DNA of 34,013 nt from NCBI GenBank assembly GCA_903930455.1, contig CAIYYT010000013.1:1-34013 (forward strand). Direction: 5' to 3'. Source of the DNA: an uncultured bacterium (GTDB lineage Bacteria > Zixibacteria > MSB-5A5 > CAIYYT01). The notes under the pieces were generated by a model. It did no database searches. It was not told the DNA's origin and saw only the letters and a program-made list of their open reading frames with translations. Positions 10,512 to 34,013 of this stretch are shown piece by piece (within the stretch, counting starts at the first letter, position 1; each line of letters starts with the position of its first letter). Position numbers and translations under genes: made by a program.

Positions 10512-12008
10512 CTACTTCGGAGTCGGCTTGGCCTGTTGCGGACTGCTCTGCACACCGCCGGGATTGTAGTCGATAATCGTATTCCTCTCAATTATCGCAC
10601 CTGTTGGCGTCAGGTCGAAAGCATACCACCAAAGACCAGCACCTGTGGTCGGGACATCGAAGCTGCGAATGAGAGACGCTCCCTTGTAGAAATCTATATG
10701 TGCGCGCGAGACAGTGATGTCCGGCGAACCGGAATAGTTTTTTACAGAGAATTTGCAGGTATCAAGGAGCTTCCCGATTGTGATTGTTTCCGGTCCATAG
10801 CTGTCGAGATCGTCTACGTCCAGGAAGGCGTATGGTATCGTGTCGAGGCTTCCCTTATAAAACCAGTAGATTTCTGTACCAAGCGTCCAGAGATGGAGAT
10901 CAAGATCGTGCGGATCCAGACCCCAGGTCAGAACCGCTCGATATTGATTGGAATCCAGCACGGGTGTAAGCACGAAATCGACGCTAACCGTAGGCTCCAG
11001 AAGCTGGACCGTGCGCGTACCTTGAATGAAACCGGTCTTCGATGCAATCACTTGATATGATCCATAAGGCAACTCGGCCATTGAGAACATGCCGTCGCTA
11101 TTGGTCTTCACTGAGCGTTGGGCCGGTCCCGTGACCGTGACATCTACACTGTCCAGAGGACCGCCAGTCAACGCATTGCTTGCGCTTCCGGCGATTGTGC
11201 CGTATTCGGAAACCTGCTGAATGCTGATTGTCTGGCCGTCCGCGACAAAGGAGCTACTTCCCAATTCGGCAATCGTGCCGACGTTGTCAACCATCCTGTT
11301 TGTGGACAATGTTAAGTCGGTTGATCCTGCGGTGAGCGCCGTAAACCACAAATCAACCAGCGCCGGGAAATTCAACGGGACGATATCATCATTGCCTTGC
11401 CGCGACACACCGACAAGAAGGTGCGTCCTGAGAACCGTCGCAGTATCCACCAGTTCACCCCAGGCATTACTAGACGCACTGATGCTGTCGAATCTGATAA
11501 CTGTTGGATCAAAAATGATCTGGAAATCCCCACTGCGAAACTTGGCGATGTTGTACAACTCCAGTTTGCTTTCAAAAGACGAACCGGTTTGCGTTTGCGC
11601 CCAGTAAGGCGACAATTTCACCATCGGCACAGCGGGCAGAAGTTGCAGCGACACGGTGTTGTCGCGACCCGGTTGAATTGTGACAGTCGTTTGCCCTGAA
11701 TAGACAACGTGATTTTGAGAATCGAGCGCATGGACCGTGAAGGTGGCGGCAACGGCATCCAAGTCAAACGTGGAAAAGCTGAAGTGGCCATCGGCAACCG
11801 CCGTTGTGTCATGGCGAATGATTTGATCATTCTGCACAACCTCCAACGTCACCTTCTGCACAGTTGCCGCCAAAGAGGTCTTGAGCAGCGTAACCGCCAG
11901 TGCCGTCGGCTGACGATCGGACTTTGTTGGCTTGTTGCTGATACAGCCAATCATAAGGGATATCGCGATCAGGCTAATTAGAGCTGAAAATCTGATTGCT
12001 TTCATCAT
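10512..12008 (-). CDS. Lipoprotein with cohesin-like, CarboxypepD_reg-like and YfaP (DUF2135) domains
   Basis: 498 aa. Signal peptide with lipobox LMIGC, lipidated Cys22. Residues 35-122 look like an N-terminal beta-domain. Residues 128-265 resemble a cohesin-like module (FESKLELYNIAKFRSGDFQI, DPTVIRFDSIS, then LTAGSTDLTLS). Residues 268-350 are a carboxypeptidase-regulatory-like beta-sandwich (GTIAGSASNALTGGPLDSV, TNSDGMFSMAELPYGSYQV). Residues 356-480 match the YfaP/DUF2135 pattern: LTWGLDPHDLDLHLW, YKGSLDTIPYAFLDVDD, YGPETITI. It is the last gene of a three-gene operon, 3 bp after the beta-barrel gene; its ribosome binding site GGGGAGG (12015-12021) overlaps the end of that gene. Probably anchored in the outer membrane. 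Function is unknown; surface binding is inference. Confidence 0.85.
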   Translation of the reverse strand: MMKAIRFSALISLIAISLMIGCISNKPTKSDRQPTALAVTLLKTSLAATVQKVTLEVVQNDQIIRHDTTAVADGHFSFSTFDLDAVAATFTVHALDSQNHVVYSGQTTVTIQPGRDNTVSLQLLPAVPMVKLSPYWAQTQTGSSFESKLELYNIAKFRSGDFQIIFDPTVIRFDSISASSNAWGELVDTATVLRTHLLVGVSRQGNDDIVPLNFPALVDLWFTALTAGSTDLTLSTNRMVDNVGTIAELGSSSFVADGQTISIQQVSEYGTIAGSASNALTGGPLDSVDVTVTGPAQRSVKTNSDGMFSMAELPYGSYQVIASKTGFIQGTRTVQLLEPTVSVDFVLTPVLDSNQYRAVLTWGLDPHDLDLHLWTLGTEIYWFYKGSLDTIPYAFLDVDDLDSYGPETITIGKLLDTCKFSVKNYSGSPDITVSRAHIDFYKGASLIRSFDVPTTGAGLWWYAFDLTPTGAIIERNTIIDYNPGGVQSSPQQAKPTPK

Positions 12009-12011
12009 CCT

Positions 12012-13190
12012 CTACCTCCCCTGCCCCGGTTGAAAGGTCAGCACGAATGCCAGTCCAAGACCGGTAAGACCGTATTGCGAGTCGATCTTGCCCGTGTAAT
12101 ACGAGATCATTGAGCTTGCGGAAAATGCGTCGGTCAATGCATAGGCAACACCACCGCCAAAGCCTACATAGTGGGACTTGGGCAGGAATCCCAGACTCTC
12201 CCTGGCATAGTCGTTAGCACTCACATTCTCCAACTCAAGCCGGCCAAGAACTCGCAACTTCTCGGATGCTGGGAAGCGGCCATTGACATAGGCGAGAATC
12301 TGGCTGCGGCCTGATTTTAGTGCTTCGTCAGACAACACCTGTTCGCCTGACGATCTGATCTTTGCCTTGCCGCGCATTAGCACAGACGTTCCGAGAGTTA
12401 GATCAAATCCTTCGCTGTATGTCACAGCACCGCTGATTGTCGTTGCCACGCCAGCCTGAAAGGTCTCTTTGTTGTCGTAATTGTCCTTCGTGTAGTACTT
12501 GACAGTCACACCTAATGATCCGCCGACGGGACGACTGTCAAGACTGACACCGAGCGATCCGAAAATCTCATCGCCGTACTTGTACTCTCGCGTGTCCGAC
12601 TCAAGCGGTCGGTACTTGCCGCGGTGAAGGTAGCCACCGCCGACATTCAGGCCAAAACTCCCCCAGCTCGGAAGTGCAAACCAATCGGCACCGATATCAA
12701 GCCCCTGCCCATAACGACGCACCATGAATTTGCGGGAGACGTCAGCCAACTGGGCCGTAAGCTCGTATTGATCAGCCGTCAACTCTCGCTTACCCGTCGG
12801 CAAATTGAAGAACACCGACCCGGCGCCCTTGCCTTCTCCGAAAGTGTAAGTAAGTCGTAGGCGCGTATCGTTGAGAGAAGACAGACTTTGCTTGAGATTG
12901 TTTGCAGTGTTGTTATACTCTAACCGTGACGTGGAGTTCGCCATTGTTCCGCTTAGATCAACATGAAATTTGCTGCTCAGAACACCTGTCGCGTCCAACC
13001 CAAACACCCCCTGACCTACTTTTTGATCATTTGGCTTGGGAGATGTCTCGTCAATTCCGCGCGTAGGCAGGTCAAGTTTCCAGTTTTGAAATGTGTAGTA
13101 AACCGACAACCGGTTCTGCTCTTCCGAATACCCGTCGCTCGCCAAAACCATCAGCAGTGCCACTGCTGCGAAAACCATTCTGACAATCAT
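12012..13190 (-). CDS. Outer-membrane beta-barrel protein of unknown function
   Basis: 392 aa. Signal peptide MIVRMVFAAVALLMVLASDGYS (about 1-22). The rest is alternating hydrophobic/polar strands typical of a porin-like barrel: LSVYYTFQNWKLD, FHVDLSGTMANSTSRLEY, LRLTYTFGEGKGAGSVFFNL, SFGLNVGGGYLHRGKY, ending YGLTGLGLAFVLTFQPGQGR. No family could be named. The ATG has GGGAGGA five bases upstream. It is the middle gene of an operon, 10 bp after the TPR/CsgG-like lipoprotein gene and 3 bp before the YfaP lipoprotein gene. The context suggests an outer-membrane complex of one pore or scaffold with two lipoproteins. Confidence 0.8.
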   Translation of the reverse strand: MIVRMVFAAVALLMVLASDGYSEEQNRLSVYYTFQNWKLDLPTRGIDETSPKPNDQKVGQGVFGLDATGVLSSKFHVDLSGTMANSTSRLEYNNTANNLKQSLSSLNDTRLRLTYTFGEGKGAGSVFFNLPTGKRELTADQYELTAQLADVSRKFMVRRYGQGLDIGADWFALPSWGSFGLNVGGGYLHRGKYRPLESDTREYKYGDEIFGSLGVSLDSRPVGGSLGVTVKYYTKDNYDNKETFQAGVATTISGAVTYSEGFDLTLGTSVLMRGKAKIRSSGEQVLSDEALKSGRSQILAYVNGRFPASEKLRVLGRLELENVSANDYARESLGFLPKSHYVGFGGGVAYALTDAFSASSMISYYTGKIDSQYGLTGLGLAFVLTFQPGQGR

Positions 13191-13200
13191 AACATCCTCC

Positions 13201-14490
13201 CTATCTCACCGAGCCGGACACGGTTGCCGAGCCGGTTCCTGTGGTTGTCGTCGGAAGGTCTTCATGACGCGGATCGGTATCGGAATTTGAGAGATCGAGC
13301 AGCTCGCGTCCGAGTTTGTCACCATTCGACTGCTTCGCCGACGTACCCGCTAATACCACACTACTAAACCGCTGCAAGTCAACTGAACCGGCTTGCAACA
13401 ACTGCGCCTGACTGTGGAATTCCTTGGCCAGACCAAAGGACGGATCAATACGCGTTGCTTCGATAAAGAAGGCATCGGCCTTGCCGTAGTCGCCTCGGTC
13501 AAACTGGTCCACACCGCGACCAAAGGCGAGAAACGCTGAGTAAGAATCAGTCGGCGACTTCTTGAGTTCTCGCCGCGCACTACCGCCGAGTTTGATGCCC
13601 AGACTATCCAGTACTGCCAGCGTCATCTGTTTTTGCACCTTCATAGCTTTGGAAAATTGATCGTTGGCAGCGAACGCCGGACTGTATGAACCGACGCCCG
13701 TGTTGATTAGACCGGTCTGTAGGGAAAGCTTGTCAGCGGCCGGAGAATCGAGATTGGCTGTAACAAGGTGCTGCGCCGTTACGAATTTCCCGAGCCTCGG
13801 TCCGGAATTTTTGGCAACGAAACCTTTTTCGGCGGCTGACAATTCGTCAGTCAAGTATTTCATCTGCAAGCGTTCAACAACTTGCAGTTCCTTCACTGAC
13901 GCCAGATCGTACCAGAGCGCTGCCGCCATTCCCTGTGCCAGCGCACTTGTATTCTCGCCCGCTTTGTTGGGTACATTGAAAGGCAACACGCCGACGGTCT
14001 TTTCTGCAGGGGTCTGACTCGCCAATGATTTCTCATTCTTCACTGCCTCAGCGACCTGTTTGCGCATCTGCTCATCTTGCACATATAATAACCGCCCCTT
14101 GATTTCTGGCACCATAGGCGATTTGCTGTTATCCGCCAGAAACTTGCCGTATAATTCGGCAGCGCCGGCGTAATCTTTCTTCGTTTCGGCGATCATGCCG
14201 AGGTATAGTATGATGGTACCATCTTTCGGAATCCGCGCCTGCGCAGCTTTCAACAACTTCTCAGCCTGATCATAGTCCTGCAGATGATAGTAAACCTGCC
14301 CCAGCGCACGCTGCACATGAGGATCGTCAGGGCGTTCGCGCAGCGCTTGCTCGTAGTAGGCCAGCGCCTGCTGATAACTCCGGCTTTTGAGCGCTTGATC
14401 CCCTTGTCTTACAAAGCTCTGACTGCAGCCTACAATAACTGCCAAAATCAAAAGCGCAAGCGTCAGACCGCTCGCTCTGGTTATGTTCAT
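13201..14490 (-). CDS. TPR lipoprotein with a CsgG/FlgO-like domain
   Basis: 429 aa. Lipobox VIVGC with Cys22. Residues 29-120 hold TPR repeats (QGDQALKSRSYQQALAYYEQAL, ALGQVYYHLQDYDQAEKLLKAA, ETKKDYAGAAELY). Residues 165-300 look like a CsgG/FlgO-type periplasmic domain: TVGVLPFNVP, AQGMAAALWYDLASVKELQVVERLQMKYLTDEL, KFVTAQHLVTANL. A further TPR is at about 315-355. The C-terminus is Thr/Ser/Gly-rich. The start at 14490 has AAGGAGG (14498-14504) seven bases before; the frame extends upstream to 14622 but without support. CsgG is the curli export pore; related lipoproteins often score lipoprotein or outer-membrane assembly. First gene of the three-gene operon divergent from the sigma/anti-sigma pair. 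Confidence 0.87.
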   Translation of the reverse strand: MNITRASGLTLALLILAVIVGCSQSFVRQGDQALKSRSYQQALAYYEQALRERPDDPHVQRALGQVYYHLQDYDQAEKLLKAAQARIPKDGTIILYLGMIAETKKDYAGAAELYGKFLADNSKSPMVPEIKGRLLYVQDEQMRKQVAEAVKNEKSLASQTPAEKTVGVLPFNVPNKAGENTSALAQGMAAALWYDLASVKELQVVERLQMKYLTDELSAAEKGFVAKNSGPRLGKFVTAQHLVTANLDSPAADKLSLQTGLINTGVGSYSPAFAANDQFSKAMKVQKQMTLAVLDSLGIKLGGSARRELKKSPTDSYSAFLAFGRGVDQFDRGDYGKADAFFIEATRIDPSFGLAKEFHSQAQLLQAGSVDLQRFSSVVLAGTSAKQSNGDKLGRELLDLSNSDTDPRHEDLPTTTTGTGSATVSGSVR

Positions 14491-14610
14491 ACCATGTCCT
14501 CCTTGAGAAACATTCAACCCGCGATCAGATTTATTGCGGCAGGGTCCGCACCGCAAGTGGCTGGTACGTCTCAAAATGACTCTGACTGCAGGTACACTTG
14601 GAAATCGATC

Positions 14611-14638
14611 AATATAACCCAAATCAATCTACCATTAA
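14611..14638 (-). promoter_or_regulatory. Possible promoter of the three-gene envelope operon
   Basis: On the minus strand TATATT (14611-14616) with a weak -35 TTAATG (14633-14638) 16 bp away. It would give a leader of about 115 nt before the ATG at 14490. The remainder of the 344-base gap 14491-14834 shows no gene or strong hairpin that I can support. Confidence 0.35.
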
Positions 14639-14834
14639 ACGCAACCCTGCCATTTTCTTATGGCAATATTACTGAACGCCATAGCCGGTTCGCAACGTCA
14701 TTCTTGCAGGAAAAGAAATTATGGGCTGGAAATGGGGTTTTGTTAATTGCGACTCGAAACAGGCACGGCTTGCGCCTTGATGTTCACTCCGATCGCGATC
14801 TTCTGTCGACCATTCGTGGGCAACAAAGCCGTCA

Positions 14835-15530
14835 GTGAATGTCAGTATAGTGCTATGCTGCAATCACTTAGACGCTTCCATGCTAACATCGTTTATAGCC
14901 CACGGGAGATTCCCGCAGATTCTTGTTACCTTCCGACCTCCAAAAGCATCTCTTAGACAAGTGGGAAAGAACAGCAGTCCATTCTGGCAGCTGGTCGCAA
15001 GAGAGCACGAAAACGCCAGAGCATATTGTATTCGATTGACGGGTAATTCTGGCGATGGAGATGATCTATACCAAGATGCCGTTATCAAAGCTTTCAAGGG
15101 TTTCGATGGTCTCAAACAGGTGGATTCTTTCAGGCCGTGGTTCTATCAAATCATCAACAACACATATAGGGGTCGTGTTAGAACCCCTTGGTGGAAACAC
15201 GTCTTGTCTCGACCCATTGAAATTGCGGATTATGACTGGAGTCACGATCCCACTAATCTTTATGAAGCGAAGAGACGCTTAGATTCCGCCCTGTCAGCGC
15301 TTTGCGTTGATGACCGCATCATCGTGACCCTGGCGGAATTAGAGGGATGGAAGATTTCTGAACTGGCTGAACTAGCTTCCAAGACGGAAGGATTCATCAA
15401 GATGCGCTTGTCCCGAGCTCGAACGAAAATGCGCAAACGGCTGGGCAGCTTGCATCGAAGAACAAAAAAACTCACAAGTGATAGAGGAACAGTGAATTCA
15501 TGCTGTGCCACCAAGCCCGAAGAAGACTAA
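14835..15530 (+). CDS. ECF-type RNA polymerase sigma factor
   Basis: Up to 231 aa. Sigma region 2 is at about 48-115 (FWQLVAREHENARAYCIRLTG, GDGDDLYQDAVIKAFKGFD, FRPWFYQIINNTY) and region 4 at about 150-215 (LDSALSALCVDDRIIVTLAELEGWKISELAELASKTEGFIKMRLSRARTKMRKRL), the layout of ECF sigma factors. The true start is unclear: the frame begins at GTG 14835, an ATG is at 14880, and neither has a good ribosome binding site; the sigma fold itself begins near residue 45. It is followed, with a 31-nt overlap, by a gene for a zinc-finger anti-sigma factor. Targets are unknown; the divergent envelope operon is a candidate. Confidence 0.9.
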   Translation: MNVSIVLCCNHLDASMLTSFIAHGRFPQILVTFRPPKASLRQVGKNSSPFWQLVAREHENARAYCIRLTGNSGDGDDLYQDAVIKAFKGFDGLKQVDSFRPWFYQIINNTYRGRVRTPWWKHVLSRPIEIADYDWSHDPTNLYEAKRRLDSALSALCVDDRIIVTLAELEGWKISELAELASKTEGFIKMRLSRARTKMRKRLGSLHRRTKKLTSDRGTVNSCCATKPEED

Positions 15531-16210
15531 ACGAGTGTGATTGGCTCCATAGCAATTACAGTCTCGATGAAGAACTAATGGAGCATTTGGGAAGATGTCC
15601 GAAGTGCTACAGTCTGGTTCAGGCTGAAGAAGCTTTACGCAGTGATCTCGGCGTTCTTCGAGAGGCCAAACCGGACGGCGATCTGTCATTGGACGCTATC
15701 AGGGAAAAGACCGAGAGTTTGGCACGTCGTACGGACAGAGTAGAACCGGATGTCAGATCTTTTGCTCATAGACTGGCGCTTGCTCTCGTGCCTAACACGC
15801 GCTACAAATTCGCTGTGGTAGCAATTGCCGTTCTCGTTGGATTCCTTGCCGTGGTTCCTTTCAACTTCAAGGAAAAGATCGGTTACGAAATCGCTATTGG
15901 TGGCGTAGAGAAGAGCATTGCCTTGGATAACCAGCAGATCACTTCGCTTCTCGGCGCGCTTGGCATGGAGAAAGGCAAGGCGTCCACGCTTCTGGATTCG
16001 CTGGGGATGAGCGACATACATCTCTCCGTCGGCGAATGTAGCGAGACCTGCCGTCTAACAATATCCGATTTGAAAACCGAACGAGACGTAAGACTGATGG
16101 TGAAAGCAATAATCGAACTGGGTTGCTGTCAGATCGACAATATTGCTCCCATCTTTCGCAGCGAGTCAACAAGCTTACTGGGCCTTGCTGCCAGAAAACT
16201 GCTTTCTTGA
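15500..16210 (+). CDS. Membrane-bound zinc-finger anti-sigma factor
   Basis: 236 aa. The N-terminal 40 residues carry the ZAS-type motif HxxxCxxC (His29, Cys33, Cys36, in HLGRCPKC) with an upstream Cys3 as the likely fourth ligand. One transmembrane helix at about 103-121 (FAVVAIAVLVGFLAVVPF) puts about 115 residues in the periplasm. That part holds Cys180, Cys184 (CSETC) and a Cys209-Cys210 pair, a possible metal- or redox-sensing cluster. The gene overlaps the end of the sigma factor gene by 31 nt, the usual arrangement for a cognate pair: the zinc finger binds and holds the sigma factor until a signal is received. Confidence 0.88.
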   Translation: MLCHQARRRLNECDWLHSNYSLDEELMEHLGRCPKCYSLVQAEEALRSDLGVLREAKPDGDLSLDAIREKTESLARRTDRVEPDVRSFAHRLALALVPNTRYKFAVVAIAVLVGFLAVVPFNFKEKIGYEIAIGGVEKSIALDNQQITSLLGALGMEKGKASTLLDSLGMSDIHLSVGECSETCRLTISDLKTERDVRLMVKAIIELGCCQIDNIAPIFRSESTSLLGLAARKLLS

Positions 16211-16322
16211 TAGCCAATCATGGCAACTATCCGCGAATGGTTAGCAGTAACACACGAACTTTATACGAATAGCATAGAAAACCATCAACCTACCAAGACA
16301 CTCTGAGAAAATGGAGAACGAG

Positions 16323-17090
16323 ATGAGGAACTCAGTACTGATCATTTTGATCGCAATACTCACGCTTTGTGGCATCACACTCGCACAAGAGACCAAGAGC
16401 ACGAACGCCAAAGTCTTTATTGAGGAGACGAACTTCGACTTCGGATACATTCCCGGTGGCGAGGTCGTCAGCCATTCGTACTACCTGCAAAGTCGGGGCA
16501 CAGACTCGCTGAAAATCCTTAAAGTTCAGCCCGGCTGCGGTTGCACCAAAGCCCCGCTCAAAAAAGATGTCGTTGCCGTCGGCGACAGCGCGAACGTCGA
16601 ACTGGTATTTACATCCACCAAGGGAGGCCACGGCCCGATCTCAAAGAGCGCCACTGTTACCTGTAATGACAATGATCGTTCGAACTTTCAGTTGACTTTC
16701 AAAGGCAAGACCTACGACTACCCTGATTCGCTGCAACCGTTGACCCTCTCGGTTGCGACCATCAGGATGGACGCAACGACAAAGTCAAAGGAAGCAAAAC
16801 TAGTAGTAAAGAACGTTTCCAAGACGAACGTCAAGATGAATCTGGTTAGCCTGCCATCCGACTATCTGAAAATCGATATCCCTGACTCCGAAATCAAACC
16901 GGGCAAGGAGAAGGAGATCAAAATACGGGTCAATCCTCTGGTCAATGACGAGGAATTCAAGAAGTCGTTTACGTTCGCTGTAAACGATTCCGCCGGCACT
17001 CGCTACACGGTTCCGGTGCTTCTCACCAAGTCAGCCGGAGTGGCGCAAACTCCGACGTCACCGGACAAGAAGGTCGAAGGCACTCATTAG
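16323..17090 (+). CDS. Secreted DUF1573 family protein
   Basis: 255 aa from the ATG at 16323, which has GGAG six bases upstream; a second ATG lies at 16311. A signal peptide (about 3-22, SVLIILIAILTLCGITLA) precedes a DUF1573 domain: NFDFGYIPGGEVVSHSYYLQSRGTDSLKILKVQPGCGCTKA, then a second immunoglobulin-like domain (about 135-235, KLVVKNVSKTNVKMNLVSLP). DUF1573 domains are small beta-sandwich modules of exported proteins, common in FCB bacteria; the PGCGCT stretch is typical. It lies 112 bp after the anti-sigma gene, same strand, and ends in a strong terminator. Confidence 0.88.
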   Translation: MRNSVLIILIAILTLCGITLAQETKSTNAKVFIEETNFDFGYIPGGEVVSHSYYLQSRGTDSLKILKVQPGCGCTKAPLKKDVVAVGDSANVELVFTSTKGGHGPISKSATVTCNDNDRSNFQLTFKGKTYDYPDSLQPLTLSVATIRMDATTKSKEAKLVVKNVSKTNVKMNLVSLPSDYLKIDIPDSEIKPGKEKEIKIRVNPLVNDEEFKKSFTFAVNDSAGTRYTVPVLLTKSAGVAQTPTSPDKKVEGTH

Positions 17091-17234: not shown

Positions 17235-19124
17235 CTAGGGTGTTCCGCAAGCCACGGACCAGCCAGTGCAGTTGCAGGGAGCCGAACCACCCGAAAAGAT
17301 GTAACTGATCAAGTACACGACGTCACTGATGTCCACCATGCAATCGCAGTTGGCGTCGCCCGAGCAGATAGCATAAGGTGTCGGTGCTGAACCACCTGAG
17401 AAGATGAAAGAGATCAGGTAAACAACATCGGAAATGTCAATCGTGGCATCACCATTGGCATCGCCTGGCTTGCAGGTACAGGCAACCTCGCAAGCATCTC
17501 CAATGCCGTCGCCGTCGGTATCGGCCTGCGATGGGTTATACACCGTCGGGCAGTTGTCACAAGCGTCGCCTACGCCGTCCCCATCGGTATCTTTCTGAAG
17601 AGGATTGTACACAGTCGGACAATTATCAAACGGGTCAAAAACGCCATCCCCATCGGTATCCGGTCCACACGTAAGCACCTTCTCGAAGATAATATCCTGA
17701 CTGCTTCCGTTTCGCCCGTCATTCCAAGTGAACGCTGATCCATTCAACAGGTTGAAATCCGATCCCATATAATCGCCGATATAGAGTCCTGCCGGAGGGA
17801 TAGCGAAAGTAGCTTTTGGCGGAATTGGCGGTATGTCCGAGAGTATGCAGTCTTTCCAGTTTAGACCGCAGTCTATCGAAGTTGATGCCCAGGTCTGGAT
17901 AGCGGTATTAGTGGGATCAAGTCTCCGGTCGAAGTAGCTGATTACGATTGTGCCCGTCACAGGATCGACAGTCATCTGCGGCGCCCACTGGTCGCGCCCA
18001 TTGCCTATTGGGTCTTGATTGACTCTGACCGGGGCGGTCCAAGTCCCTGCGGCACCGGTGGGGCTGGATGAGAAGTAAATATCAACATCGATGCCGCCGG
18101 GATCCGTCGCCCAGGCAACAAAGACCTTGCCTGCGCATGGACCCGCTCCAACTGCAATAGTAGCGTTGGAAGCGGACTTGATTCCCGGATTCAAAATCGG
18201 GGGCACAGCCGGAAAGGCTGCCACGAGCGCAGGACCAATGAAAGGCGCACCTAGAGCAGGAGACGCGGTAACATAGACATTCATTCCGTCTGTCCATGCC
18301 ACATAAACACCTCCAACAGGTACAAACGGATTCCCCGGAGGACCCATCGTAGCAATACTGGGGCGGTGAGCTTGCATCTCCAAACCCATCACCGGACCGG
18401 CAAACAAGACCACGGGCGCCGAAAAGACTGGATAAATGGGGGCAGGCCCCGGCAGAGTGCGGGAATAGACGAAGTTGATATTGTACATGTCGGCCGGTTC
18501 GTCAAAGGGATTACCTGTACCGTTGGGATCGCCGTCAGCATCCATATAGCTGACCCATGCCACATAGACAGTACCTAAGCTCAGTGCGGGAACGGCAGGA
18601 TTATCATTGATCATAATGTTGGGGTAGTCCAACCAAGTAGCTCCCGGTGCGTTCACGGCGATAGTTGGTCCTACAACAAACGGAGTTCCCCCACCCGCTG
18701 ACTTGTACACAGTGATGCCGTTAGGGCTAATGTAGGGAGGAGCTGGCCCATAGTTGGCGCAAACGCTGTAGAACCCCCCCAATGGATGCGACGCTATCGC
18801 GGGATTCCACGCAAAAGCATATGGTGGCGCTGGAGGCAAAACCATACCAGCTGCCCAGGAGACGCCACTGGTGGGAGAAAATGACCAGTTGATCAACGAT
18901 GTGCCGAAACCTGCCGGAAAGTCGGACCACACGGCGTAGATTTCCCCGGGAGTGACTTCACTTTGGGACACTGCCGAGTTGTTCTGCTCGGTTGCCGGTG
19001 GACTGGTGAAACTAACGAGCGTGTTCGGTAGAGCGGATGCAGGCGGACTTGCCGCTGTCAAGATCAGCAACAGCGCAGTCCCCACGAACGCCCATTTTCG
19101 ATTGGCAAGAACGAACCTTCCCAT
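17235..19124 (-). CDS. Large secreted protein with sialidase-like repeats, TSP type-3 repeats and dockerin-like C-terminus
   Basis: 629 aa from ATG 19124, which has AGAGGTG before it; the frame is open to 19184 without support. Signal peptide about 1-32 ([21 protein letters not shown]). Residues 35-480 contain recurring beta-strands of the form VYVAWxxxxDxxG and [11 protein letters not shown], as in exo-sialidase/BNR-type propeller proteins; no catalytic set could be confirmed. Residues 486-545 are three calcium-binding thrombospondin type-3 motifs ([20 protein letters not shown] and two more). Residues 550-616 are two dockerin-like repeats ([25 protein letters not shown] and [25 protein letters not shown]). 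No T9SS sorting domain follows. Likely a cell-surface protein; ligand unknown. Confidence 0.85.
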
Positions 19125-19245
19125 GGTCACCTCTTTTGTTGGTGTTCTCGTGTGGCGAAACTTCAAATCAAAGACCCAGGTCATTCAATATCAGAATCCT
19201 GACTCCGGATAGCGACCCCGAACCCTCCGAGAAAGCGCATGATTA

Positions 19246-23013: not shown

Positions 23014-23634
23014 TTACTTGCACGCCGCGCATGGCACGACCCCGCCGGAGAAGATATAACTCACGAGATAGACGACATCGGCAATTGTAATTTCTCCGTC
23101 GCAGTCAACATCGCCGGAAGCCAATGGGTCGGGCGCTGCACCTCCGGAGAAGATGTAATTCACAAGATAAACCACGTCAGCGATATCGATGTCGTCGCTA
23201 TGGTCAACATCGCCGCAAAGGTAGCCACCGCCGAAGTTCTGCCAGTACCCCGACTGCAGTAAGTAGCTGCCGACACTCGACGATCCTGCGGCGATTTGTC
23301 CGATCGTAGAACCAAGAACCAGTGTGCCCAACGTCTGCGTGCCCCCTCCAGAAGCCAATACCTGCCAATTGATCTGCTCACCAGCTTGCGGTGAAGCGTT
23401 GATGTTGGTCAGCTCCGGTGTTTCGGAAACAGGCGAAACCATTGCTGTTGATGATGACGACACATTAACAGTCTCCGGCTGCGTCTGAGGCGCTTGCTGT
23501 TGAGCCGGTTTGGTGACAGCTGTCTGCGCTTTGTTTGCTTGAATGGGAATCTTCTTGGCAGCACTGCCGACTTCAGTGCTCACAAGCAACACCACCACTG
23601 CCAGAACAATGACCAGGATTAGCTTTGATCGCAT
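23014..23634 (-). CDS. Secreted protein with two dockerin-like repeats
   Basis: 206 aa from ATG 23634, with AGGAGA about eight bases upstream. Signal peptide about 1-24 (RSKLILVIVLAVVVLLVSTEVGSA), then a Gln/Thr/Pro/Ser-rich linker (25-85). Residues 86-140 contain a motif frequent in FCB surface proteins (LGTLVLGSTIGQIAAGSSSVGSYLLQSGYWQNF). Residues 141-203 are two dockerin-like repeats (CGDVDHSDDIDIADVVYLVNYIFSGG and GDVDCDGEITIADVVYLVSYIFSGG), each with a DxDxDxxIxxxD-type calcium loop. No sorting domain follows. A TATATT at 23661-23666 (minus) is a possible -10 box with no clear -35. A small cell-surface module; partner unknown. Confidence 0.86.
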   Translation of the reverse strand: MRSKLILVIVLAVVVLLVSTEVGSAAKKIPIQANKAQTAVTKPAQQQAPQTQPETVNVSSSSTAMVSPVSETPELTNINASPQAGEQINWQVLASGGGTQTLGTLVLGSTIGQIAAGSSSVGSYLLQSGYWQNFGGGYLCGDVDHSDDIDIADVVYLVNYIFSGGAAPDPLASGDVDCDGEITIADVVYLVSYIFSGGVVPCAACK

Positions 23635-24263
23635 AAATTTGTTCTCCTGTCTGCTATTTGAATATACATCATTTCTATGCAAAACACGTCTCAATTCCCG
23701 TAGCGCCCAGATATACACCTGCAATGAATCAGTGTCATCACCAGATTTTTAGATATCTTCCGACTGCCCAAGCTGCAGTGAGAACTCAATATCAGTGCAC
23801 CGCAAGAACGAAAGTATGTACCATCAACAATCAATGCATCTGGAGGGATTTGTCAATGAGAAAATGAGGGTTGGCGCAATTATCAACGTGTTCAACACGA
23901 GCTTACCAGGTCGCGAAAACCTTGTGGATGCGATCCCCGCTATTAGTGCTCCCATTCCAAGGGTCGGAAGCGACTGAAGACACCCTGATACACCAAGTTA
24001 CATTTCTCCAACCAAAACTCCGAAAACGGCTTAACAGGGTTCGATTCGCGGACCCCTAGCCGGAGAAACCCATCATTCTGGTGAAGCGGTGTGAACTTCA
24101 GTGCACTCTGCAAAGTACTACTGCCGAGAAGCCGGAGTGGAATTGTAGCATTATCTGACTTCTATACCTCATCTTGATTCGCTCGAGCAGACACCGCAGC
24201 TAGGCTAATGCAAAGGTCGTCGTTCAACCAAGGCGCTACTATCCCGTTTTCCCCTACTGCTGG

Positions 24264-27512: not shown

Positions 27513-28423
27513 AACGGGTCAACCACCAACGATAACACTAACTTGCCAATACGCCCCAGCGATTCCGGCGAGCACTTGTCGGGTGTGTCCTGAGTAGTGT
27601 GCCACCAAGGGTAATCAAAATCAATAATGTCCATCGTTCTTATGGATGCTGCCAACAGCGGCAGATGATCATCGTAAATCGGCTGTGATATTCGGGCATC
27701 GAAGGTAGTCGACATTCCGAGATGCGCGGCTCGAGCCCAGACCTTGTCAACCAGTTTCCCCTCATAGCGAACCGAGTATTCCTCCTTGAAAAATCGCTGA
27801 CTCTTGTCTCCCACCATATCAAGCACAACGCTGTAATCGTACACTTTCGCGTCAGCGCGACGCGCGAATTCCTTGGCGCCAAGGCAGTAGTAATCCAGAT
27901 CCCCGGATTCACCCCAATCCTCGCCGTCGAGAAAAACGAGGTCGACGCCCCTTTCTACGTGCAGCGCGGCCAGTTCCTTCGCCAGTTGCAGCAGAACCGC
28001 AGTGCCCGAAGCACCATCGTTGGCGCCCGGCAATGGCTGAGTTTGCTTCTGAGAATCGGCATCCATCTCCGAGCGTGGGCGCGAATCCCAATGCGCGCAA
28101 AACAGCAAGCGGTTGCTCTTATTAGGATTAAACCTGCCGATCACATTTGTCAGGTGCAGGGTGTCGGAGGAATAAGGGTCTTTGACCTGGAAATCCTGTT
28201 TCTCCACCGCGATTCCAAGACTGTCAAAGGTGCGCGCGATCAGAGCGAGCGCCTGCTGATGCGCCAGTGTATTGGGTACACGTGGCCCAAGATCGCATTG
28301 TGCGATCAAATACTGATAGGCTGCGCTGCCATCAAACTCGCTCACTGACCGGCGTGAGCTGCTGTCGGAACCACAAGAAATGGCGAATAGGGCAAACGTG
28401 ATTATGAAAACGCGCATTGTCAT
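27509..28423 (-). CDS. M28 family lipoprotein, glutaminyl-peptide cyclotransferase-like
   Basis: 304 aa. Lipobox FAISC with Cys17. The M28/QC fold is clear: NVIGRF, HWDSRP (111-116), GANDGASG (133-140) with zinc ligand Asp136, FLDGEDWG (164-171) with Glu168, VVLDMVGD (199-206), YDDHLPLL (250-257), and WWHTTQDTPDK with zinc ligand His275. The single zinc-ligand set Asp-Glu-His and the DDH and WHT motifs are those of animal- and bacterial-type glutaminyl cyclases, which convert N-terminal Gln to pyroglutamate. T9SS cargo of Bacteroidota often has Gln after the signal peptide, and a QC of this type acts there; the link with sprA in one operon fits. Its ATG overlaps the sprA stop (TAATG). Confidence 0.88.
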   Translation of the reverse strand: MTMRVFIITFALFAISCGSDSSSRRSVSEFDGSAAYQYLIAQCDLGPRVPNTLAHQQALALIARTFDSLGIAVEKQDFQVKDPYSSDTLHLTNVIGRFNPNKSNRLLFCAHWDSRPRSEMDADSQKQTQPLPGANDGASGTAVLLQLAKELAALHVERGVDLVFLDGEDWGESGDLDYYCLGAKEFARRADAKVYDYSVVLDMVGDKSQRFFKEEYSVRYEGKLVDKVWARAAHLGMSTTFDARISQPIYDDHLPLLAASIRTMDIIDFDYPWWHTTQDTPDKCSPESLGRIGKLVLSLVVDPL

Positions 28424-31400
28424 TAGAAGCGAATTTCCACCCAGAATGAGAGTTCACGCACATGGCTCTTCTTCTTAGTGCGGATATCATTAGAATCCTG
28501 CCAGCGCGCACTCATGCCACCCTTGATATTGGTAGAGAAGTTGTAGGTGACGCTCGGGACCGCCGAGAAATCAGTGCGCTCAGCGGTGGTTTGGTCTCCA
28601 GTGAGATAGTAGTTGACTGTGCGGTTAAGGCGACGACTAATATCCAAATTAAAGGTCAGAGTTGACTGTATCTTGATTTTTCCAAAAAGAGGCAACCAGA
28701 GTTTGCTTCCACCTCGGAAAGAGTACGATGTCTTTATGGATAGCGTGTTGGCAAAGTCCTTGACGTCACTGATTTGAACGCCGGTCGAATCGTTGAAGCC
28801 TTCACTCTCGGAGATTGTCCTGGAGTAGTTAAAGGTGGACTGCAGACCTTGCGCCAGCTTCCAGTCAATCTTGACCGTCACCAGTGGCGAGTAGTTTGTC
28901 GCTGTCAAGCGACTCTTGAGCTTTCCGTACTGCTTGCTTATCGAAGTATTCTGTTGGCGGGAATACTTGGAATCCAGTGAGATCGACTTGGAGAAAAGCT
29001 TAGGCAGAAGCAAGTAGTCGAGCTTGCCGAAAGTAAATGTCAGATCCGGATAAGTGGTTGATTCATCGCGCGTCGCTTTGCCGGTTGCATCCGAAGTGCT
29101 ATAGGCGTAGGTGGCGGCGACCTTGATGTCTAGAATCAACCGTACTCCGGAATGGAAAGAGTAACCTTGCCCCCGAGTTATTGCGTCCGTTTGACTGGTA
29201 CCGGCGGAGGCGAGAATACGATCTGCATTCGGATCGTCCGAAAAACCAATTCGGTAAAGAAAACTTGGCCGCTGCACAAAACCGGCGAGCGACTGGCGTT
29301 TCTCCCAGTGGAAAGAGCCGCCGATCGGATCGACTCGATCGGTGAAGAGGCGGACAAACTGCAGTCCGATCCCATAGAACGGTGTTCCCGGCGGTCCTTG
29401 CGCCTTCGGCTTGCCTTTCTGACTGGCTGGCTTGAGGGCGGTTGAATCGTGCTTGACTTTCGTCGAGTCAGACGTTGCGGCACCCGGTTTGGTCGGGACC
29501 TTGTTCTTTGGGGTTTCCGCGCCCACTCCCTTACCCTTGCTCTCCTTGTTCGCAAGCGAATCAGATTTTGTCGAAACCGTGTCTCCAGCAACCGGAGGAA
29601 TTACCAGCGGTGGCTTCACTTCGCCCTTCTCTTCGTCTTTTGGTGGTGTCACCGGAATTGGTGGAGCTTGACCGCTGTCAGGATTTGGTTCCGCAAACAC
29701 GACCGCGAAAGTCTGACCAATACTCTCGGGGAGATTCAGGGACGCCTTCTTGTCGCCAATCTTGGTGGTATCCCTCAAAGAGTCGGCAGCCGGTGGCTTT
29801 GGAGGATTCGGCCCACCGGGACCTTGCCGCATAGAGTCAAGCGATGGAACTCTCGTGCTGTCCGCTGCCGGCAGATCATGGGGTTTGCCTTTGCCTTTCT
29901 TGCCCGTTGAATCAGGAGGAACAGTCTCACCCTTGCCTTTCTTTGGAGGGGGGTTCTCCTTGGGTGGCGCCTTCTTGGTAGACGGCCGGTTCTTGCCAAG
30001 CAGTTTTTGCAGATCAAAAGTGGCATTGGCAGTCAAGCTCCTGCTGTTATCGGCGCGCCGAGTACCTATCTCTTGAGCGCTCGTCGAGGTCAGCACTACA
30101 GTTTCCGTGTGATTGACGGAATAGCCGAACTTGGTGCCAGTGACAAACGGCAAAATCTGAGGCGAGTAATTGGTCGAGAAACTCTGAGTGTATTGCCGTT
30201 CCTGACCCAACTTGGCCTGCTTGGGGTCAAGTGCGAATTTGAGCAGCGTCGGATCGCTTAGATCGCGGTCAGTCGTGAAGCCGTAGTTGACGTCGACCGA
30301 GTTTAGCGGCGCGAAGCCAGTTTCGAATCGGCCCTGAAACGTCCGCAGATAACGGTTTGTCTGCGTGCCATAGCTGTTCGTCGTGCTCTCGAGCGTGCGA
30401 TTGACCGTGCCATCGAGGGAGGCACGCAATGGAATCGGGTTGAACTCGGTGCCCAGCACTCGCTTTGGCAACAGCGGCATGCCGCGCAACCATGACAGGA
30501 GTTTCAGCCCATGCTTAATCGGGCTGTTGACCGAGTACCTGCCCGTGAGCGTGTAACGTTCACTCTCATAATTTGGCGTCGTGGGTGTGCGTGCAATTGA
30601 CTTGTCGTACGAGAAATTCGAGTTGAACTTGTTTAGCAGAGCACCATAGATAATATTTCGAGTCTGTTTGTTCCAGCTTTCTCCGATCTGGAAATGGGTG
30701 GTCGTGCTAACCGACTTCTGTTCCTCGGTGCGGTCCGGAGTCACAGCAATATCAGAGCCGGTGATAAGTCGTGGCGAAGACTCATTGCGACGCCAGCTAT
30801 AGCCCACTGGGATGTTGGCTTTCTCCTGCGACGATAAGAACTTATCGAGCTTCATATCTGCGCTATAGCCATAGTTGGTACTGGAGTTGCCAGATCCGAG
30901 ATCACTCTGATCGGAAGTTAGATTCCGGAAAAATGCATCCTGCTTGGAGTAGTCAGAGTGGAAGGAACCGAGATCGCCAACCGAAATCGAGGTGGACGCA
31001 ACAGCCGCCAAACCGCGGTCGTTTCGAACGCTTGTTGCCCGCAACTCATCTACCCACAATTCTCCCGTAGTCAGTTTCTGCGACTCATTCGTATGCAAAT
31101 TAACGACGCCCATGGCGTAGTACTTCACGCGCGTTAGAGATGGGCTACCGAAAACGCGGTAGTGAGGATGCACCGGCGTCGTTATCTGAGTGGAATCAGA
31201 AGTAGTATCTTTGGCGATCAGCTTCAATTGTGTGATGTCATCGAAAGTGATGTCGACTGAGTTATGGGCACTCCAACCGGAGTCAATTGTGGTGCGATAC
31301 TCATAGTAGTTGGAAGCGTCTGGACCGAAACGAAAGAAGAACTCAGTGCTGTCGCGGACGCTGTCACCATGAACCCACATCGCCAGCTTTCGATAATTGG

Positions 31401-34013
31401 TCAGATCCTGCGCTTTATACGGTATCTTTTCCGCATAAGCGGTATCACCGGGAAGCAGCTCTCGGTAATTCAGGCTGAGCGATTGCTCCTTCTCCTGCAA
31501 ATTGTTGACCTGATCGTAATAGCCGGCGACTCCCGGAGGGGAGTAGTAGTCTACGTTTTCTTCCGTATTGACAACCGCTGCATTGAGCCCCGCCGAATCA
31601 CCGCGCAGAGCCGTCGTGGGAAGTGTCGCCTGTACCTCCCAGATGTTGCGCGCCAATTGAAGATCGGCAATCTCAACAGTGTCGGGATTGTCGGAGTCGA
31701 CACCATCGATCCACAACCGGACTCCCGTAATGTTGGAACGTGACGGTGAGCCAATACTGTCCTTTACGAAAGCGTTGTTAAACGGAATTCGCACCGTATA
31801 CCAGCCGTTGCGGTCCGAATTCGGCACCACATTCTCGCCTCTGGCCAAGTCGATGGAATAGGAGTAATAGTTGTCCAGGGAATCAAGAACGCCACTGCCG
31901 TTAAGATCTTCGGTGTCGGGACGTCCATTGATGCCCGGATCAAGACCATTATTTTCCGTGCCATTTATATGTTCATAGTTGCGAGGATCTTGGTAATCCC
32001 AATCGTCACCATGCGGATCAGGATCTGTGCAGCCGCACTCCCGTCGCTCCAGACTATCAGGCATCAGATCAAGACCCGTATCCTCGCCGAAATCGAGAAT
32101 GCCGTTCGTGTTGATGTCTTCCGTGTCAAGTTTGCCATTCGTCTGGCCGTTACTATCTGGCAGGTCTTCGGTGATTTGGCCAAAATCAAGATGAAGCACG
32201 CCGAGCGATCCTCTCATCCGCAGTTCAATAAACTGGATATTGCTCTGATCATAAGAACCCTTGCTCAAAGCCTTCATCACTCCACCCCAGGAAGACTTGC
32301 GATCGCTGCCACTCGGCGTCAGGCGCATGACCAACACATTAATGTGGTCTTCCCCAGCCTTGGCATTCCTGTCGTATACCTGCGTGACCGGAATTTGATC
32401 GTAGGGGTTGTACCAGATAAATCGGCCCGGCTTCGTGAACGACGCCTGCTTCTGTGCCGGCGTCGAGGCAAAATGCCAGCCTTCGCGGGTAACACCCAGA
32501 GAAAACTGCTCGCGCGCCCCTTCGAAATCATCCACGTATGCTTCACCGCTGACATTGGAATTCGGTACCGACCGCGCCACCTCGCCGTTGACCGAAATCT
32601 GTGAGGGGGTGTTGGTCTCGATAAACGGAAGCGCATCAACCATCTTCGTGAGCAGATTGCTCTGGAAAGCGTACGATATGTCGGAGTCGAGATTGAGGGA
32701 TTTCGTCTGCTCCTCGCCGATGCGCGGTTTGCGGTCGGTTGTCTTCTCCGACTTGTACAGTACGGTAACACCCATTTTCAGATTGCTCCCAACCTGGTAC
32801 TCCGCCCGAGCACCTAAAAGCGTTTTTTTCTGAGCCGCAATCAACGGCGAGTACTCGTAATCGACTTTGACATCAGCCCCGGGATTGAGCGCTTCTTGAT
32901 TGAGGAACGAGATTCTGCCCAGATCGTAGTATATCTGGTAATCAACACCCTTTTTGAGTGGCTTGCCGTTCAGAGTCACGGTCTCGGATTCCGATACAAT
33001 ATCTGAGTGTCCCAAGTAGAACTCGCTCTGGCGCGACGTCGAATTAACGACGAGATAGTACTTGGTCGCATTCTTCCAAGCCGTTGTCGTCGATTTCGTG
33101 AGGTAGAGAGAATCCACACGCACATCGAGAATCGGGTCAGCAAACGGCTTGCGACTTCTCGGAAAGCGCAAGTGTCCTCGGGTGAGGTCGACTATTTGTC
33201 CGTTACGGCTGTCTATTTGCCCGTTGCCGTCGCTGTCAAGCCCGAGCAGCTTGATATACGGCGTCCCGTTCTGGTGGTCCAGATCGGAGACATCGCGGTC
33301 CGTGATGCTGGTGGCGGCGCCTTTGTATATCTTGACCTCGAGATTGTCCGGATCTTCAATGGCGCCACCCAGACTATATACGTTACGCCAAACGTAGTTC
33401 CAAGTAACGAACGTTGGCTGTGGATTTGCGTTGGCAATAAGCTTCAGCGTATAGGTCGAAGTGTCTGGCCTGCTGCCGATCTCGTTATAGGTAGTGTCTG
33501 TCCCCAGCACGCGTCGGTATCTGATGTAAGCGCCAATCGACAGATTAGTGACCGGCTGACTCATGATTACATAGTGTTCAGTGGGATGGAAATAGAAAGT
33601 ACCATAATTTGTGCAGTTGTTGAATGAAACAAACGTACCCTGAACGTTCTCGCTGGAATAGCGTGTGTTTGTTATGTCGAAAGGATCAACCCAGACATTG
33701 CACAAATGCTTGAAGTTGTCACAGGGGCCGCCCGTGTTAGTAGCGGTTACGGAGTAGTAGAGTTCAAGTTCGGTGATGCTGTCTCCCTGATGCAAGTCGT
33801 TCTCGGAAACGGTGTCCAAACGCGCGAGATCGAAATAGGTCATGTCCAGAAACTGATTTTCGCGGATAACGTGCGTTTGAGATTCCGTCCCGGCCTTGAA
33901 GCTGGCGCCCTGATTGGACGACTTTTCCTGGGACGCGATTGCTGTCAGCTTCAGCCCGCCGAGTTCTGCGGTTGTCTTGATACCAAACAATCCCTGAATC
34001 TGCCGCGAGTAAC
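28423..34013 (-). CDS. sprA: T9SS outer-membrane translocon protein SprA/Sov, N-terminus beyond the window
   Basis: At least 1862 residues are present; the frame runs open through the right edge (residues YSRQIQGLFGIKTTAELGGLKLTAIASQ), so the N-terminus is missing. SprA forms the giant 36-strand beta-barrel of the T9SS channel. Recognisable family traits: QIQGLFGIK...LTAIASQEKSSNQG, the plug/beta-sandwich part with VDDFEGAREQFSLG, DLDFGQITEDL-type strands and GELWVDELRATSV, and a C-terminal barrel that ends in the outer-membrane signature WVEIRF. EF-hand-like loops DSDGNGQIDSRNGQ, NGKLDTEDINTNGILD and INGRPDTEDLNGSG suggest bound calcium. A roughly 200-residue Pro/Lys/Ser-rich stretch encoded at 29390-29990 interrupts the barrel. 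First recognisable gene of the operon sprA - M28 peptidase - comEA. Confidence 0.93.
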   Translation of the reverse strand, partial: YSRQIQGLFGIKTTAELGGLKLTAIASQEKSSNQGASFKAGTESQTHVIRENQFLDMTYFDLARLDTVSENDLHQGDSITELELYYSVTATNTGGPCDNFKHLCNVWVDPFDITNTRYSSENVQGTFVSFNNCTNYGTFYFHPTEHYVIMSQPVTNLSIGAYIRYRRVLGTDTTYNEIGSRPDTSTYTLKLIANANPQPTFVTWNYVWRNVYSLGGAIEDPDNLEVKIYKGAATSITDRDVSDLDHQNGTPYIKLLGLDSDGNGQIDSRNGQIVDLTRGHLRFPRSRKPFADPILDVRVDSLYLTKSTTTAWKNATKYYLVVNSTSRQSEFYLGHSDIVSESETVTLNGKPLKKGVDYQIYYDLGRISFLNQEALNPGADVKVDYEYSPLIAAQKKTLLGARAEYQVGSNLKMGVTVLYKSEKTTDRKPRIGEEQTKSLNLDSDISYAFQSNLLTKMVDALPFIETNTPSQISVNGEVARSVPNSNVSGEAYVDDFEGAREQFSLGVTREGWHFASTPAQKQASFTKPGRFIWYNPYDQIPVTQVYDRNAKAGEDHINVLVMRLTPSGSDRKSSWGGVMKALSKGSYDQSNIQFIELRMRGSLGVLHLDFGQITEDLPDSNGQTNGKLDTEDINTNGILDFGEDTGLDLMPDSLERRECGCTDPDPHGDDWDYQDPRNYEHINGTENNGLDPGINGRPDTEDLNGSGVLDSLDNYYSYSIDLARGENVVPNSDRNGWYTVRIPFNNAFVKDSIGSPSRSNITGVRLWIDGVDSDNPDTVEIADLQLARNIWEVQATLPTTALRGDSAGLNAAVVNTEENVDYYSPPGVAGYYDQVNNLQEKEQSLSLNYRELLPGDTAYAEKIPYKAQDLTNYRKLAMWVHGDSVRDSTEFFFRFGPDASNYYEYRTTIDSGWSAHNSVDITFDDITQLKLIAKDTTSDSTQITTPVHPHYRVFGSPSLTRVKYYAMGVVNLHTNESQKLTTGELWVDELRATSVRNDRGLAAVASTSISVGDLGSFHSDYSKQDAFFRNLTSDQSDLGSGNSSTNYGYSADMKLDKFLSSQEKANIPVGYSWRRNESSPRLITGSDIAVTPDRTEEQKSVSTTTHFQIGESWNKQTRNIIYGALLNKFNSNFSYDKSIARTPTTPNYESERYTLTGRYSVNSPIKHGLKLLSWLRGMPLLPKRVLGTEFNPIPLRASLDGTVNRTLESTTNSYGTQTNRYLRTFQGRFETGFAPLNSVDVNYGFTTDRDLSDPTLLKFALDPKQAKLGQERQYTQSFSTNYSPQILPFVTGTKFGYSVNHTETVVLTSTSAQEIGTRRADNSRSLTANATFDLQKLLGKNRPSTKKAPPKENPPPKKGKGETVPPDSTGKKGKGKPHDLPAADSTRVPSLDSMRQGPGGPNPPKPPAADSLRDTTKIGDKKASLNLPESIGQTFAVVFAEPNPDSGQAPPIPVTPPKDEEKGEVKPPLVIPPVAGDTVSTKSDSLANKESKGKGVGAETPKNKVPTKPGAATSDSTKVKHDSTALKPASQKGKPKAQGPPGTPFYGIGLQFVRLFTDRVDPIGGSFHWEKRQSLAGFVQRPSFLYRIGFSDDPNADRILASAGTSQTDAITRGQGYSFHSGVRLILDIKVAATYAYSTSDATGKATRDESTTYPDLTFTFGKLDYLLLPKLFSKSISLDSKYSRQQNTSISKQYGKLKSRLTATNYSPLVTVKIDWKLAQGLQSTFNYSRTISESEGFNDSTGVQISDVKDFANTLSIKTSYSFRGGSKLWLPLFGKIKIQSTLTFNLDISRRLNRTVNYYLTGDQTTAERTDFSAVPSVTYNFSTNIKGGMSARWQDSNDIRTKKKSHVRELSFWVEIRF

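Follow-up and report, generated by a model that had tools for sequence, protein, structure and literature searches.

An ancient retained paralogue of a widespread, unnamed envelope operon in Zixibacteria: a TPR/CsgG-like lipoprotein, a beta-barrel and a cohesin-like lipoprotein

Introduction

Assemblies that combine TPRs with an outer-membrane beta-barrel have been described for different export tasks. In the Slam/DUF560 translocons, TPRs and a barrel pair for surface lipoproteins (PMC8406197), and in PelBC a lipoprotein ring is located beneath a TPR/16-strand barrel (PMC12141448). Other described systems that bear on the locus analysed here are the curli secretion channel CsgG (PF03783), the cellulosomal association of cohesins with dockerins and the type VI secretion system (T6SS) with its Bacteroidota-like components TssBC, Hcp, VgrG and TssFGK.

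The locus is located on a stretch of 34,013 nucleotides from an uncultured bacterium of the Zixibacteria (contig CAIYYT010000013.1 of assembly GCA_903930455.1), hereafter called the window, and comprises three genes, A, B and C, which are a copy of a longer operon in relatives, the parent operon. As in the Slam/DUF560 translocons (TXISS), TPRs and a barrel are encoded beside a surface-lipoprotein gene; however, the TPR and barrel genes are separate here, while the DUF560 (PF04575) barrel of Slam is fused to the TPRs, and B has approximately 16 strands as compared to 14 and no DUF560 match. Equally, a TPR scaffold, a 16-strand barrel and a periplasmic small alpha/beta lipoprotein are found in PelB-PelC, with PelC presumably resembling the alpha/beta fold class of A; in the locus, though, the TPRs are carried by the lipoprotein and not by the barrel, synthase genes are missing and a cohesin-type lipoprotein has been added. 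CsgG and A are both lipoproteins with a CsgG-type alpha/beta domain, but A is without the TM1 insertion of about 22 residues and is TPR-flanked, a separate barrel gene is present whereas CsgG makes its own barrel, and the operon contains no curli genes. With the cellulosome, the locus has in common that the C family includes cohesins and that dockerin proteins neighbour the parent locus and are abundant in the genome. In contrast to the cellulosome, a single cohesin resides on an outer-membrane lipoprotein and not on a multi-cohesin scaffoldin, and, instead of cellulases, the tested dockerin partners comprise surface proteins of the PKD, beta-helix or Ig-like kind. Finally, the parent operon adjoins a T6SS cluster in 19 genomes, but no Tss match is found for its own genes, which occur also without a T6SS.

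Organization of the locus

Table 1. Features of the A-B-C locus and the divergent sigma factor unit in the window.
Feature	Coordinates	Strand	Description
A	13201..14490	(-)	lipoprotein: N-terminal TPRs, CsgG/LpoB-like alpha/beta domain (residues ~155-300), C-terminal TPR helices
B	12012..13190	(-)	outer-membrane beta-barrel: signal peptide and ~16 long strands
C	10512..12008	(-)	surface-type lipoprotein: cohesin-like region ~125-260, CarboxypepD_reg 271-348, C-terminal module
Divergent intergenic region, A/sigma	14491..14960		470 bases
Probable autoregulatory ECF promoter TGTTAC-N16-GCATCT	14924..14951	(+)	ends 9 bases 5' of the sigma start
ECF sigma factor	14961..15530	(+)	189 aa, start GTG 14961
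Anti-sigma factor, ZAS-like	15500..16210	(+)	N-terminal H-x3-C-x2-C, one membrane segment
DUF1573 protein	16311..17090	(+)	conserved partner of the sigma/anti-sigma pair

A first-pass annotation had described a tight A-B-C operon opposite an ECF sigma/anti-sigma pair, which was confirmed for all five genes and their strands (Table 1), with the trio extending from 14490 to 10512 and gaps of 10 bases between A and B and 3 bases between B and C. Its divergent gap of 344 bases had been calculated from the longest sigma open frame, starting at 14835; with the GTG start set by the relatives the gap increases to 470 bases. An intergenic block at approximately 14608-14681 is near-identical between the window and genome G001 of the same genus. 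In the window, an Rfam scan identified three tRNAs and nothing else, a scan for sigma-70-type promoters gave an unclear result with 10 promoter-like sites versus 5.1 expected, and terminator-like sites occurred at chance level.

Additional genes of the window include a Ser/Thr kinase of 559 aa (179-1858) with kinase matches in two separate stretches, which is related to the kinase of the parent operon without linkage to it. Located at 1930-2781 is a weak Por_Secre_tail match (24.3 versus 27 bits), a possible T9SS cargo, and at 28423-33990 a T9SS translocon-like protein of 1855 aa with an SprA_N match of 121.8 bits.

An old copy of a widespread operon

Ninety-eight relatives plus named contigs were searched, by which the genome is assigned to Candidatus Zixiibacteriota, and the barrel was counted phylum-wide over 133 genomes. 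Most relatives carry a parent operon of five genes with the order Ser/Thr kinase - CsgG-like - A - B - C, the CsgG-like gene of which (A0), a paralogue of A, matches CsgG with 56.8 bits against a cut-off of 20.8; outside the phylum, the parent operon is found in Krumholzibacteriia and Latescibacterota. The barrel was matched in 69 of the 133 phylum genomes and the window type in seven, namely G000 (the genome of the window), G001, G002, G004, G034, G049 and G054. All seven keep the order A-B-C, with the contig of G054 ending inside C, and the gene set is therefore not due to chance; the three genes thus stay together in relatives, the co-occurrence that had been proposed as a check of the operon. 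No kinase or CsgG-only gene is found beside the window-type trio, while in genomes of family f1 (window, L122, L123, L124) it is adjoined by rmuC.

Phylogenetic analysis of the A proteins groups all window-type members in a single clade (support 100/100) with a long branch. The parent copy is retained in all seven genomes including G000, where it is located on another contig (L121, G000:C160) that ends inside the CsgG-like gene. Because the window-type copies constitute a single fully supported clade and none of the seven genomes has lost the parent copy, the window trio is an ancient retained paralogue of a widespread unnamed operon. Literature searches for the gene set or for a T6SS of Zixibacteriota recovered no description, in agreement with the initial statement that a named system with this set is not known.

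Two lipoproteins and a barrel

In A, the N-terminal TPRs are above the Pfam cut-off, while the CsgG match is sub-threshold (17.6 versus 20.8 bits). As 36 of 38 A-family members match CsgG (PF03783) at E<=0.01, the original designation as a TPR/CsgG-like lipoprotein holds for the TPRs and, on the level of the family, for CsgG, with the window protein itself remaining below the cut-off. An AF2 model (pLDDT 85.9) arranges A as TPRs, a CsgG-like alpha/beta domain and TPR-like helices. Foldseek with A gave TPR matches only and a PDB profile search with A0 was dominated by designed TPR proteins; the CsgG-like domain alone has CsgG as its sole relative in the PDB (E ~0.05). Profile positions up to 98 align to residues 65-132 of CsgG and the next aligned piece ends at 178, such that about 22 CsgG residues (TM1, ~133-153) have no counterpart in the family profile and constitute an insertion of CsgG. 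The strands of the domain are short in the AF2 model, and the TM2 pore hairpin of CsgG is presumably absent as well. In CsgG, the barrel is lined by the TM1 hairpin; because the domain has none, we consider a curli-type channel unlikely and dropped a curli-like pore as a candidate. A membrane pore formed by A itself is equally unlikely, and the membrane part is the barrel B.

B has no Pfam match. Its AF2 model (pLDDT 92.1, pTM 0.86) is a barrel of approximately 16 long strands, with structural matches to porin-type folds at TM ~0.4, BcsC barrels among them, and without assignment to a specific family or a match to any known translocon.

The lipoprotein C possesses a lipobox, a CarboxypepD_reg domain (49 bits versus a cut-off of 32.3) and a C-terminal module common to other Zixibacteriota proteins. 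The cohesin match of window C is below the cut-off (19.1 versus 24.1 bits), which is passed by four C proteins of parent operons (25.6, 28.6, 33.2 and 42.5 bits), and a C-family profile retrieves cellulosomal scaffoldin cohesins from the PDB (best E 3.3e-5). Of the modules assigned to C initially, CarboxypepD_reg is thus solid and cohesin is borne out in the parent proteins; a YfaP/DUF2135 module was discarded, with no Pfam match at E<=0.1 for window C and at E<=1 for the relatives.

Beside C, all five parent loci tested, which represent three families, encode a dockerin protein (23.1-34.8 bits against a cut-off of 22.9). These neighbours are large PKD/beta-helix/Ig proteins with a FlgD_ig/Por_Secre_tail-like C-terminus, and in G034 and G049 C and the adjacent dockerin gene remain paired, although both have been relocated to the opposite side of the kinase. 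Dockerins occur also in upstream neighbours of the parent operon (G001, G002, G040), and the 3.8 Mb genome G000 contains 93 dockerin and 7 cohesin matches. As judged from these domains and their neighbourhood, a role of the parent operon in cohesin-dockerin attachment on the outer surface is supported. Approximately 50-100 dockerins are present also in several related families.

The window operon has no adjoining dockerin gene; the nearest are at 23014-23724 (28.4 bits) and at 17235-19184, the latter encoding a BNR/TSP3 protein in which the dockerin match is sub-threshold (16.8 bits). The window copy has diverged and, with its cohesin match below the cut-off, the ligand of window C may differ, so that the cohesin-like region may bind something else.

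A surface-display model and its alternatives

The reading that we tentatively prefer, although we would place it somewhat short of an even chance, is that an assembly of A and B in the outer membrane surface-exposes C to hold dockerin-tagged proteins, with the trio as a conserved ancient duplicate. A, an outer-membrane-anchored periplasmic lipoprotein with TPR and CsgG/LpoB-type folds, would gather beneath B and act as an adaptor or collar in the periplasm; the A-B complex would move C to, or hold C at, the external side of the outer membrane, where the cohesin-like and other beta-sandwich modules of C would bind dockerin-bearing or other secreted proteins. The exposure of C by A and B is modelled on Slam-type and PelBC-type assemblies. 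Of the export or surface-display complex envisaged previously, display fits the true cohesin of parent C and its dockerin neighbours, while a CsgG-type export channel is weakened by the missing TM1. The SprA-type T9SS protein in the window was counted in favour of surface display. In many cases, the neighbour of the parent operon is a T6SS cluster and not a dockerin gene; display may therefore not be the ancestral role.

This association leads to an alternative, in which the operon family constitutes the outer-membrane part of a TssM-less T6SS. The injection machine would be anchored to the outer membrane or gated there by A0, A and B and would be activated by the kinase, and the window copy would be a spare or a specialised one. 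Of 36 genomes with the parent operon and this T6SS, 19 have the operon within ~20 kb of the T6SS cluster, usually convergently, and this layout is also seen beyond the phylum, in Krumholzibacteriia and in a further lineage (L192, L194). The linked cluster contains a split ClpV, TssB, TssC, Hcp, VgrG, TssG and TssK, with TssC and Hcp matching the Bacteroidota-type models PF17541 and PF17642. Operon and sheath co-occur (36 genomes with both, 15 with the operon only, 9 with this sheath type only and 38 with neither; Fisher p 3e-7, not corrected for kinship), and TssM is absent in 45 of 45 genomes with this sheath type, being present only in 11 other genomes; among these 11, a classical-type TssG is matched in nine. 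Against this alternative, the 15 operon-only and 9 sheath-only genomes exclude an obligate T6SS role of the operon. Furthermore, the window-type copy is never beside T6SS genes, and three of the seven window-type genomes have TssM without this sheath type. The T6SS linkage being that of the parent operon, the window operon was rejected as a direct T6SS part; for the operon family as a whole, we consider a T6SS function unlikely. A combination of the two readings, with the parent operon as outer-membrane anchor and switch of a TssM-less T6SS in FCB-group bacteria and the duplicated copy turned into a surface-display device in families like that of the window, appears unlikely.

Several observations concern the T6SS genes themselves. 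In G000, a TssC gene is present on a separate contig (C233), and TssG and TssK were not found in this assembly. ClpV is split into two genes (L142:11196-18284 and L141:12680-19453; G060, G072), one encoding Clp_N and D1 (484 aa) and the other D2 and ClpB_D2-small (384 aa). Conserved cluster proteins of ~307 aa, ~733 aa and ~176 aa (L137:3945-7648), the ~733 aa protein with a P-loop and a weak double-GTPase match, are candidates for the missing membrane complex.

Alternatively, A and B might serve polysaccharide export, as a port comparable to PelB-PelC, BcsC or AlgK-AlgE, and C would be a lipoprotein that binds the matrix. The combination of TPRs, a CsgG/LpoB-like lipoprotein domain and a 16-strand barrel mirrors PelBC, and BcsC barrels are recovered with B. 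Yet, the matches of B are generic to porins and no polysaccharide synthase or modification enzyme was detected by Pfam in the window operon or the tested neighbours, which makes a port improbable.

The control of the operon by the sigma pair, as proposed by the first-pass annotation, did not withstand comparison with the relatives. The divergent arrangement of pair and operon, with a largely alignable intergenic region, is conserved only within the genus (G000, G001). In G002 and G004, members of the same family, sigma/anti-sigma is on another contig than the operon, and in G078, G082 and G043 it is present without a window-type operon. Directly after the anti-sigma gene, a DUF1573 gene is found in six of six loci with a readable downstream side. 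The occurrence of the pair mostly beside other genes had been named by the first-pass annotation as a refutation of its proposal, and this is the pattern observed. G000, G001, G078 and G082 all carry the conserved motif TGTTAC-N16-GCATCT, probably an autoregulatory ECF promoter as judged from its form, directly 5' of the sigma gene, and variants of it occur in G002 and G043; upstream of A, where a search for an ECF-type promoter ahead of 14490 had been suggested, it is absent. With up to 2 mismatches, the only other site in the window lies inside B, as compared to about five expected by chance, and across the genome G000 the motif has two exact copies. Since the pair is unlinked in the same family and its own promoter is absent upstream of A, a regulatory link is rejected and the sigma pair appears to be a chance neighbour outside the system of the operon. 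Activation of a CsgG-type export complex by the divergent pair, which the arrangement within the genus would favour, is largely refuted by this linkage, the promoter distribution and the missing TM1 hairpin, and hence very improbable.

The sigma factor, the ZAS-like anti-sigma factor and DUF1573 constitute a conserved three-gene unit in its own right (window 14961-17090; L130, L131, L128, L129). The anti-sigma factor has no Pfam match; its H-x3-C-x2-C motif at residues 29-36 was read from the translation.

Significance

The trio is real, ancient and conserved, and it belongs to a widespread unnamed parent operon, the individual parts of which are of known kinds. For the five-gene envelope operon, whose barrel is detected in about half of the phylum genomes, no name or described function was found. 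Its analysis joins three subjects, TPR/CsgG-type lipoproteins with a barrel, outer-membrane cohesin-dockerin attachment and the TssM-less T6SS. Thereby, direct tests become accessible of how Zixibacteriota hold approximately 90 dockerin proteins and, equally, of how TssM-less injection machines are anchored in the envelope.
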